DNA of 64,000 bases, from contig NZ_CP107254.1 of NCBI RefSeq assembly GCF_029229925.1, forward strand, positions 186,001 through 250,000. The letters are read 5' to 3'. Position 1 is the stretch's first letter, and each line of letters begins with the position of its first letter. The position numbers were made by a program, and so were the translations under genes. The stretch comes from Halorhabdus sp. BNX81 (lineage in GTDB: Archaea > Halobacteriota > Halobacteria > Halobacteriales > Haloarculaceae). The notes under the pieces were generated by a model, which had not been told where the DNA came from, did not search any database, and saw nothing but the letters and a program-made list of their open reading frames with translations. This document shows positions 13,445 to 61,456 of the stretch, one piece after another.

Positions 13445-15319
13445 GTTTCAGACGGACCCTCGTGGGGTTGAAGCCCGCGGTATATCGACAAGCCGAAAGC
13501 GGCCACCGACGTTTCAGACGGACCCTCGTGGGGTTGAAGCGCGTCGAGGAGTTGGGTCACGTTGTCCTGTGTATAGGTTTCAGACGGACCCTCGTGGGGT
13601 TGAAGCGTATTAGTCGGATCGCGTATGATAACCAGCGTCTCGTTTCAGACGGACCCTCGTGGGGTTGAAGCTCGCGGGTCACTGGCCGTCACCTCCGTCA
13701 AACTCGGTTTCAGACGGACCCTCGTGGGGTTGAAGCATCTCCTGAGGTCCGTCGTTGGCCTGCCAGGAGTCGGTTTCAGACGGACCCTCGTGGGGTTGAA
13801 GCTCTTGCAGGATGTCGATCACCTCGTCCGTCGACGTGTTTCAGACGGACCCTCGTGGGGTTGAAGCGGCCGGCGGTGGGGGGTTAGAGAAAAGGGGTCT
13901 AAAGTTTCAGACGGACCCTCGTGGGGTTGAAGCTCCCCGAGAGGTGGACGGCCGTGAGCGGCCCAGAACGTTTCAGACGGACCCTCGTGGGGTTGAAGCT
14001 CACCCGGCGCAGGGCACTGAAAGCGGGCGCTGGCGGTTTCAGACGGACCCTCGTGGGGTTGAAGCGGTGGCCTGCTCGCCGTGGCGATCGGCGCGCTCCC
14101 CGTTTCAGACGGACCCTCGTGGGGTTGAAGCACGATCCGGCCACCGTCGCTGAATCCCTTTATCTCGGTTTCAGACGGACCCTCGTGGGGTTGAAGCTAC
14201 GGCCACAATACTGAATTATGATATTATCACATGTTTCAGACGGACCCTCGTGGGGTTGAAGCGGACGATGGTGAACGACATGGTTTCGATAGCGAAGCGT
14301 TTCAGACGGACCCTCGTGGGGTTGAAGCACCGCCTGACGGTCGCTCACCACCGGTAAGCTCCCGGTTTCAGACGGACCCTCGTGGGGTTGAAGCACGTCG
14401 GACCCGACGACTGACGCTGACGGCCAGCCGCGTTTCAGACGGACCCTCGTGGGGTTGAAGCCGAATCTCGGTCTGATTGCTGTCCCTGCTGCTGCAGTTT
14501 CAGACGGACCCTCGTGGGGTTGAAGCCAGACACCGGTATTTGTCAACCGTTTAACTTCAGGATGTTTCAGACGGACCCTCGTGGGGTTGAAGCTGGCGGA
14601 CTTGATAAGACCCAGCCATCGCGTCAACGCGTTTCAGACGGACCCTCGTGGGGTTGAAGCTTGAAGGGTCCTGGTATCGCGTCGATCGCCTGAACGGGTT
14701 TCAGACGGACCCTCGTGGGGTTGAAGCGCTTTGTGAGACGGCATCAATCGCTCCCGCGCCTCGGTTTCAGACGGACCCTCGTGGGGTTGAAGCCGACGTA
14801 ACTGGCATGCCCGACACTTTCGGTGGGGTGGTTTCAGACGGACCCTCGTGGGGTTGAAGCACATGACGGCAACAAGATGGTGGGTGAAGGCATTTGGTTT
14901 CAGACGGACCCTCGTGGGGTTGAAGCGACACCTACCAACCACTGGATGAACAGTTTGGCTTTGGTTTCAGACGGACCCTCGTGGGGTTGAAGCAAACATC
15001 ATCCAGCGAACTTCTAACTCACTTTCCTGAAGTTTCAGACGGACCCTCGTGGGGTTGAAGCGTCTTACCAGTCTTCGGATCGCCAGCGACGGTCAGTTTC
15101 AGACGGACCCTCGTGGGGTTGAAGCTCTACAAATTGCCCCTGCATCGTCTGTAGATCGTCAGTTTCAGACGGACCCTCGTGGGGTTGAAGCATCCGGAAA
15201 AAAGAGGGTCGACACGGCCGACACGCGTTTCAGACGGACCCTCGTGGGGTTGAAGCATGGAAGGCGGGGAAATCGCCCGGCGATCGACCAGTTTCAGACG
15301 GATCCTCGGGGGTTGAAGC
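13445..15319 (+). CRISPR. Type I-B CRISPR array, 29 repeats, 28 spacers
   Basis: Repeats are 30 bases, starting GTTTCAGACGGACCCTCGTG and ending GGGTTGAAGC. Counting by eye, 28 copies look identical; the last (15291-15319) is 29 bases with C to T and one lost base, the usual decay at the leader-distal end. Spacers are 34-38 bases, mostly 36. Inside the repeat, ACCC and GGGT can form a small stem, and the last 8 bases, GTTGAAGC, would be the crRNA 5' handle after Cas6 cutting. No duplicated spacer was noticed. Orientation matches the cas operon. Several spacers, such as 14198-14232, are AT-rich compared with the chromosome. Confidence 0.99.
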
Positions 15320-15445
15320 GTCCTTGATCTCGCCGTGGGCTTCGGCGAGCGATCTTTGGTATATACTTACGTTTAGCGAGGCTCCCACCCGAACTCTGTC
15401 TCTGGCATGGTGTCCTCCTATGAAAAGACGCCCTCGGCTGCCGCG
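15320..15445. other. Array to zinc-ribbon gene gap
   Basis: 126 bases between the decayed last repeat and the end of the opposing gene. I see no repeat, promoter or gene; it probably holds the 3' end of the pre-crRNA transcript. Confidence 0.5.
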
Positions 15446-16102
15446 TCAGGCCCGCGTCGCAGTGATCGTGAGAGATACCGTCACTTCGCCGTCAGGGCTC
15501 GTGCCGTAGACGCCAGTGTTGTCGAACACCAGATCATACTCTCCTGCCCCGACTGACGTAGTTAGCTGTCCACTCTCCGCAGCCGTCCGTTGAGCGCGGT
15601 GTTGGACATCTGAGTTTCTGTCCCGGTAACGATCGTACTCGTCGTCATCAAGGAGGATGACGTCGATCGGGCCGCCGTCAGTCACCTCGAACTCAACACT
15701 GTACTCGACAGCCACATCCGGCTCGAGGATGCGTGTCGCGTACCGACCGGAAGGGATCGTGACCGTTCCCTCGAGCGTCTCCGACGTCAGCCCGGAACTC
15801 CGCTCGACATCCCAGCCCTCGCCGTAGACTCGGTGCGTGGTCTGGCCGAGCGAGTCCAGCGCGACGATCGCGCCACCGCCCAGGAGCACCGCGCCACCGC
15901 CCAGGAGTAACCGCCGGCGCGTTACCAGCGTCGGGCCGTCGCCCGCCCCGCCGGCCCCGAGGGCCTCGTCCGCCGGTGGCTCTTCGGGCGCACGCCCCGT
16001 CTCGCCGAGGAGATCAGATCCACACTCACTGCAGTACCGGCCAGAGCCGGGCGCTTCGGCCCCACACACCGGGCAATATGTTGGCGTCTCAAACTCTACC
16101 AT
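15446..16102 (-). CDS. Zinc-ribbon, membrane-anchored beta-rich protein
   Basis: A 218-residue protein of unknown function. Residues 9-28 form a zinc ribbon (CPVC ... CSEC). After an acidic linker comes TRRRLLLGGG and a hydrophobic stretch (about residues 62-82), one transmembrane segment or Tat-like anchor. The outer part, about residues 90-218, looks beta-rich, ending in VTVSLTITA. The combination of a cytosolic zinc ribbon and an exported domain is common among haloarchaeal hypothetical proteins. The TATA-like AAATATATT near 16126-16134 lies about 28 bases before the ATG, suggesting leaderless expression. It sits between the main array and the mini-array and opposes both; a link to immunity is not shown. 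Confidence 0.7.
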   Translation of the reverse strand: MVEFETPTYCPVCGAEAPGSGRYCSECGSDLLGETGRAPEEPPADEALGAGGAGDGPTLVTRRRLLLGGGAVLLGGGAIVALDSLGQTTHRVYGEGWDVERSSGLTSETLEGTVTIPSGRYATRILEPDVAVEYSVEFEVTDGGPIDVILLDDDEYDRYRDRNSDVQHRAQRTAAESGQLTTSVGAGEYDLVFDNTGVYGTSPDGEVTVSLTITATRA

Positions 16103-16125
16103 GTGTGGATCTGTGTATGGGTATC

Positions 16126-16134
16126 AAATATATT
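16126..16134. promoter_or_regulatory. TATA-like box between zinc-ribbon gene and mini-array
   Basis: AAATATATT, nearly symmetrical. On the minus strand it is correctly placed (about 28 bases) for a leaderless start at 16102. On the plus strand it would start RNA near 16157, about 50 bases before the mini-array. Confidence 0.45.
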
Positions 16135-16205
16135 TCGGGGCATGGTCACTTCCACTGGGCTGTTTGGACAGTCAGCGCGAGCTGGACATCTCGCCACGGC
16201 CACCA

Positions 16206-16302
16206 GTTTCAGACGGACCCTCGTGGGGTTGAAGCTCGATCCGGGACCGGTCGCTCCCGAAAACCATCAGGTGTTTCAGACGCACTCTCGTGGGGCGACT
16301 GC
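16206..16302 (+). CRISPR. Solitary one-spacer CRISPR mini-array
   Basis: A repeat identical to the main array (16206-16235), a 37-base spacer (16236-16272), and a decayed repeat (16273-16302) that keeps GTTTCAGACG and CTCGTGGGG but has lost the GTTGAAGC handle (it ends CGACTGC). It lies 886 bases past the main array, on the same strand, behind an opposing gene. The intact first repeat should still be cut by Cas6, giving one crRNA-like product with an irregular 3' end. It could be a relic of a longer array split by the gene at 15446-16102, or a crRNA-like regulator. Confidence 0.9.
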
Positions 16303-21756: not shown

Positions 21757-22073
21757 CAGCATGAAAGCCCCGGCTGGCTCCGGTCGAGGCGCTCGCTGCG
21801 GTCCTCACTCACTTCGCTCGTTGCGGTCCTTGCGTCGCCCGTCTTCCCGGAGCCAGCCGCCCCTTTCAGTCCCACCCGTGTCGGCTTCTTCACTGGCTTA
21901 AGTGGGTGGGACTGAAAGGGGCGAGCCGCGCGTGGCGGCGTACGCCGCCACGGAATGAGGAGGTCGGCGTCGCCGACCTCCCTTTCGGGGAAGGCGGACC
22001 CGACAAGCACCGGAACGCAGTGAGGAGCGCAGTCGCGGTCCCCCGACTCGAACGGCTCGGGGCTTTCATGCTG
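21757..22073. repeat. Dispersed structured element, copy 1
   Basis: 317 bases bounded by a perfect 16-bp inverted repeat (21757-21772 / 22058-22073, CAGCATGAAAGCCCCG). Inside: stem A, 12 bp (21772-21783 / 21847-21858); the central 18-bp inverted repeat CCCCTTTCAGTCCCACCC (21860-21877 / 21904-21921); stem C, 7 bp (21922-21928 / 22053-22059); a perfect 22-bp palindrome (21931-21952); and a 9-bp hairpin with a GTC loop (21960-21980). No convincing reading frame. It shares the central repeat and outer AAAGCCCC stem with the copy at 60970-61377, but most other stems differ in sequence while still pairing. It fills the gap between atpD and the dioxygenase gene. Confidence 0.85.
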
Positions 22074-60950: not shown

Positions 60951-60969
60951 GGGGCCGTCCTCGATGGTC

Positions 60970-61377
60970 GTGTTTAGTTTAGCGGGAATCGCTTGCAACA
61001 GCCAGAAAGCCCCCGCGCTCTCAGCTGCCGCGACTCGCTGCGCTCCGGCAGGTGCTTGCGTCGTCGGGGCTTGCTGAGAACGCGGCCCCTTTCAGTCCCA
61101 CCCGAGGCCGGTTGGTCAGCCGGCATGGGCGGGACTGAAAGGGGCGAGTGGCTCCGGGAAGACGGCCGAAGTAAGGCGCGAGGCGCTATGCGCCTCGGCA
61201 CGCGCGAACGGGCCCACGGCCCGTGAGCGGACACCGCAACGGAGTGAGGAGCGCAGCGAGGTCGTCGGACGGCGTCGCCGTCCGACTGTCCGAGGGACCA
61301 GCGGTCCCTCGCTACCCTCAACCGGAGCCACTCGGGGCTTTCTGGCTATCTCACCCAGGAATCGCTTAACTAAACAC
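60970..61377. repeat. Dispersed structured element, copy 2
   Basis: 408 bases between phosphoesterase and cofE. Outermost inverted repeat of 15 bp with one mismatch (60970-60984 / 61363-61377); outer stem, 14 bp (61000-61013 / 61334-61347); stem A, 12 bp with one mismatch (61013-61024 / 61074-61085); central CCCCTTTCAGTCCCACCC inverted repeat with one mismatch (61086-61103 / 61127-61144); stem C, 12 bp (61146-61157 / 61322-61333); hairpins at 61179-61197 (8 bp), 61208-61224 (7 bp), 61264-61286 (10 bp, GTC loop) and 61291-61311 (9 bp). A 13-bp long-range pairing (61034-61046 / 61248-61260) is an alternative. No plausible gene inside. Confidence 0.85.
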
Positions 61378-61456
61378 CGCCTCCTCGATTGCTTTCGACG
61401 CCGGACGAACGCGACGCTACCGGGCGACTTTTGGCGGTTCCGGGCCGACTCGGGGT

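Follow-up and report, generated by a model that had tools for sequence, protein, structure and literature searches.

A dispersed four-armed foldback element of haloarchaea, with IS6-type ends on a copy in Halorhabdus sp. BNX81

ISFinder lists MITEHarch3 under IS6, and the archaeal IS6-family MITEs possess archaeal IS6-like terminal inverted repeats (TIRs), an 8-bp target duplication (TSD) and no transposase gene (PMC6807381), as does the element, hereafter the window copy, found in the window analysed here (64,000 nt of the Halorhabdus sp. BNX81 genome; contig NZ_CP107254.1, positions 186,001 to 250,000). Its family differs from those MITEs in having a modular four-way cruciform interior that was found also without IS6 ends, the comparison with MITEHarch3 resting on its ISFinder listing. 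Short transposase-free haloarchaeal repeats with palindromes, including small elements nested in the palindromes of others, have been described in Haloquadratum walsbyi as PATEs and SMRs (PMC3119063). PATEs are IS605-related, carry IS605-type ends and near-terminal palindromes and have neither TIRs nor TSDs, whereas SMRs have TIRs unlike those of known transposons and make no TSD; both identities were ruled out by the IS6-type TIRs and the 8-bp TSD of the window copy. Dispersed extragenic palindromes are also known as REP/BIME sequences with RAYT transposases (PMC2817692), compared with which the elements here are far larger, and divergent-sequence hairpin repeats are dispersed in intergenic regions as the repetitive hairpin-forming elements of fungal and sponge mitochondria (PMC2800124), which belong to other organisms and have no IS ends. 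Members of the present family are about 250–400 bp long, are scattered in salt-loving archaea and can be folded into a four-armed cross; no published name was found for them in sequence and literature searches, in agreement with the first-pass annotation of this DNA. Double-hairpin elements belong among the fungal and sponge mitochondrial hairpin repeats, for which, to our knowledge, no common four-arm architecture has been described.

The window copy is a 416-bp foldback element (window 60966–61381) in which the P1 outer stem, arm A, an 18-bp central hairpin (P3) and arm B converge at a four-way junction (Table 1). The first-pass annotation had bounded it at 60970–61377, thereby missing the outer terminal repeat and the 8-bp duplication, and had paired it with a second locus, copy 1, through a shared 18-base inverted repeat with one mismatch. 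Both loci and the repeat proved real, the mismatch in P3 of the window copy being A/C at base 15, and the 18-base sequence had 4 matches at ≤3 mismatches versus 0.03 expected by chance. Folding was far stronger than that of shuffled sequence in the window copy (z -12.2) and in copy 1 (z -11.1). The copies are not two, however: the 2.83-Mb genome carries 8 with an exact P3 hairpin and intact four-arm core, besides degenerate ones.

Table 1. Coordinates in the window of the parts of the window copy and of copy 1
Feature	Position	Strand	Remarks
Left target duplication TCCTCGAT, 8 bp	60958–60965	+	Same as 61382–61389
Left terminal inverted repeat GGTCGTGTTTAGTTTAG and spacer to P1	60966–60999	+	End as in L213, an IS6-family element of a congener (GGTCGTGTTTAGTTTAGGGAGTTCCA, 8-bp TSD)
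P1, 5' strand AGCCAGAAAGCCCC	61000–61013	+	Partner 61334–61347; flanking P1 pairs covary
Arm A (C-type)	61014–61084	-	12-bp basal stem, 61014–61025/61073–61084; conserved interior GACTCGCTGCGCTCC...GGTGCTTGCGTCG
P3 central hairpin CCCCTTTCAGTCCCACCC-loop-GGGCGGGACTGAAAGGGG	61086–61144	.	Kept in every copy used
Arm B (G-type)	61146–61333	+ (outward strand)	12-bp basal stem, 61146–61157/61322–61333; homologue of arm A in reverse complement
Hairpin insert 1, arm B	61176–61231	.	Two small hairpins, loops TAT and CAC; missing from G075 ortholog
Hairpin insert 2, arm B	61262–61314	.	Two small hairpins, loops GTC and AGC; missing from G075 ortholog
P1, 3' strand GGGGCTTTCTGGCT	61334–61347	+	Partner 61000–61013
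Spacer and right terminal inverted repeat, end AACTAAACACCGCC	61348–61381	+	Reverse complement GGCGGTGTTTAGTTAAGCG is the other IS6 end of L213
Right target duplication TCCTCGAT, 8 bp	61382–61389	+	Same as 60958–60965
Copy 1, P1-arm-P3-arm-P1 core without IS6-type ends	21763–22067	.	Site occupied in G120 and G075

The common core, consisting of P1 (AACAGCNNGAAAGCCCC / GGGGCTTTCNNGCTGTT), arm A, P3 (GCCCCTTTCAGTCCCRCCC hairpin) and arm B around the four-way junction, was present with exact P3 in 47 of the 394 genomes of the order; viral contigs and phages gave neither an exact-core nor a BLAST match. Arm statistics were taken from 113 non-redundant elements with 217 arms. The arm stem was 12 bp, the commonest perfect run, and was variable in sequence, the 217 arms having 165 different 11-mers; complementarity averaged 9.7/11 within an arm versus 5.0/11 between arms, and the Watson-Crick fraction of 0.87 fell to 0.19–0.27 when partners were slid by 1–3 bases. 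Inside the stem, every arm had a conserved interior, N12-TCNN-..GACTCGCTGCGCTCCTC..TGCGGTGCTTGCGTCGTC..TTC-N12'. The helices covary, the flanking P1 pairs among the 113 elements being A-T, C-G, T-A or G-C. Arms A and B are one module, each the reverse complement of the other, and the body thus consists of two inverted half-modules (P1 half, arm and P3 half). Two arm types, G-first and C-first, were distinguished, with one of each in 74 of the 104 elements having both arms. The stem of arm A indeed differs between the two window loci, being 12 bp in both with unrelated sequences, but the helix taken for a separate stem C is really that of the second arm, arm B, with a 12-bp basal stem of its own. 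By crude gene calls, most dispersed copies sat upstream of a neighbouring gene (27 between divergent and 38 between tandem genes), and few fell in convergent intergenic regions (6). In Rfam searches no family matched the element; the only matches in the window at gathering score were CRISPR repeats, and sub-threshold hits were to miRNA-like hairpins. The CRISPR array, of CRISPR-DR24 repeats (Rfam RF01337), is located at window 13445–16235.

Both ends of the window copy are equal to those of L213, and the autonomous IS6-family elements of relatives (L213, L220) have the same two asymmetric ends with 8-bp TSDs. Two further copies in the same genome have the ends of the window copy, with duplications GAAAGAAT and CACCGGAT, and a TIR with an 8-bp TSD was observed in L002, L006, L007, L046, L138 and L148. 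In a congener (G120), the corresponding site lacks the element and the flanks join across about 34 bases, the empty-site sequence being diverged around the insertion point. The window copy is therefore a non-autonomous, IS6-type MITE by its TIRs, 8-bp TSD and empty site, and on these sequence comparisons its mobility appears well supported; of the three identities offered by the first-pass annotation, the foldback mobile element fits it best. The IS6 transposase (NF033587) had no match in the genome containing the window and a match in most relatives. Its absence was not taken as excluding a MITE because MITEs need not retain their transposase, and the window copy may have been moved in trans by an archaeal transposase of the IS6 family. 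Paired TIRs were found in about 10–15 of the approximately 110 copies, and most copies had no recognisable TIR or TSD. IS6 mobilisation is thus established for the TIR-bearing subset only, and the core cannot be regarded simply as derived from IS6.

Comparison of sister species showed directly that each arm is a hairpin cassette in its own right, subject to inversion, replacement and enlargement. The ortholog of the window copy in another congener (G075) is identical except for the absence of two arm B segments of 53–56 bp, each a pair of small hairpins; the short hairpins previously noted in the 3' half thus exist, but as inserts in arm B. Three species have collinear flanks at copy 1, but G120 has the interior in inverted orientation (query 558–741 matching the minus strand, 92%) and G075 has arm A replaced by a type found elsewhere in the genome containing the window; in the four other congeners (G270, G318, G196 and G192) only the flanks match, the element itself being uncovered. 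The P1/P3 inverted repeats of different copies probably recombine or allow template switching from one copy to another, giving rise to inversion and arm exchange. Since the change in stems is in good part arm exchange, inversion or hairpin insertion, in which pairing is kept trivially, pairing alone is weak evidence of selection.

A strand test was applied, in which the transition-type mismatches G.T and A.C should be equally frequent on either strand unless the fold of one strand matters. Without orientation the counts were equal (G.T 92, A.C 99), a misleading outcome given that the two arms occupy opposite strands. When oriented by arm type, G-arms had G.T 2 and A.C 22 and C-arms had G.T 30 and A.C 5; arm A of the window copy likewise tolerates G.T when read on the minus strand, that is, outward. 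With all arms read outward, from P3 towards P1, distinct cases amounted to G.T 48 versus A.C 7, and eleven plasmid half-modules (two identical), an independent set unused in defining the orientation, gave 10 versus 3. Thus the earlier claim that paired changes place the fold under selection gains from these counts, although much of the change on which it was based is exchange, inversion or insertion. The oriented counts provide moderate evidence that single-strand folding, of RNA or ssDNA, is under selection; a strand-specific C to T mutational skew could account for part of the bias. Each arm tolerated G-U, but the tolerant strand of one arm was opposite to that of the other. A single ordinary RNA gene is accordingly unlikely, and the structured RNA proposed earlier as a single-strand gene fits poorly.

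The P1-arm-P3 half was also detected by BLASTN on 17 haloarchaeal plasmids, and this half-module is conserved on plasmids of several families. In 11 of the 12 plasmids inspected it preceded, by 430–670 nt and in fixed orientation, a gene for an OB-fold protein akin to replication factor A (RPA-like). Between the two lies a conserved, structured noncoding stretch of approximately 400 nt (L226:3158–3550), which occurs also alone on 155 plasmids, including pNRC100, pHS3, pNG600 and pHTIA, and directly precedes the OB-fold gene in those inspected. This region had no Rfam match at gathering score, and its core is absent from the genome containing the window.

Several explanations were weighed, among which the element is probably a non-autonomous, MITE-like foldback element. 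That its half-modules are outward-transcribed RNA domains, kin to the plasmid region by the RPA-like gene and amplified into the dispersed copies, seems somewhat unlikely: the G.T bias falls on the outward strand, the consensus fold is slightly stronger outward than inward (-34.0 versus -31.4) and the half-module keeps its place and orientation upstream of the OB-fold gene, but the two arms lie on opposite strands, Rfam hits were at chance level below the gathering score and the plasmid core is missing from this genome. The oriented counts of 48:7, a stem length of exactly 12 bp together with an arm interior conserved from genus to genus, and the retention of the half-module on plasmids of several families argue against a pure DNA palindrome with no selected function, in which template switching and gene conversion perfect imperfect hairpins and swap arms among copies; such a palindrome is unlikely, even though the swapped and inverted arms, the hairpins gained or lost and the equal unoriented mismatches agree with it. 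A plasmid copy consists of precisely one half (P1, arm and the P3 5' strand), the approximately 700 nt up to the gene containing no partner for it, and each dispersed copy comprises two of these halves joined head to head, as would be seen in a terminal-fusion derivative of a larger autonomous element with one half-module per end, the plasmid locus being such an end. This origin is quite unlikely, for the plasmids examined yielded no second half in inverted position, and a full element enclosing genes between its two halves was not encountered.

Within the preferred reading as a MITE-like foldback element, the outward G.T bias would most likely mean that every half-module acts in the form of a folded single strand, either RNA from transcription across the element or ssDNA, and the mirror-image halves would yield one working arm whichever direction the element is crossed. 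The folded arm may serve as a shield, a processing site or a binding site. A wider and rather improbable proposal is that mirror-image, invertible RNA or ssDNA cassettes arose from the plasmid RNA locus by the RPA-like gene, were amplified as inverted pairs in the chromosomes of haloarchaea and continually exchanged arms while keeping single-strand folding and a 3-nt-periodic flank, and represent a new class of structure-selected mobile element. The family as such would endow archaea with a foldback element in which structure changes through the exchange of cassettes and not through point compensation; should its arms be functional RNA, an unrecognised, widely dispersed structured RNA would exist in the genomes of haloarchaea. 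It further cautions that covariation in multi-copy repeats is not proof of an RNA gene, and orienting the arms in the G.T/A.C test provides a means of telling DNA palindromes from selected single strands.

The spacers flanking P1 showed a 3-nt periodicity that is unaccounted for by the foldback-MITE model and was counted against it. In 220 flanks, within 30–60 nt just outside P1 and read inward, every third position was poor in C (about 0.1) and rich in G, and where an in-phase CTAG was present the pattern ended at it, which is suggestive of CTAG being the target duplication of copies without IS6-type ends. The spacers were rejected as protein-coding: the phase is codon-like, but third positions lack the haloarchaeal GC bias, TAG alone is in phase (not TGA or TAA) and start codons are not apparent. 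In 110 elements (e.g. L099, L141 and L167) the periodicity extended over approximately 45 nt outside P1 with CTAG at constant phase. Neighbouring genes ending in TAG shared the phase of the spacer, whereas those ending in TGA or TAA did not. Outside the element in L058, L064, L094, L099 and L144, tandem P1-like units with different spacers were observed at a spacing of 45–66 nt, nearly all multiples of three.
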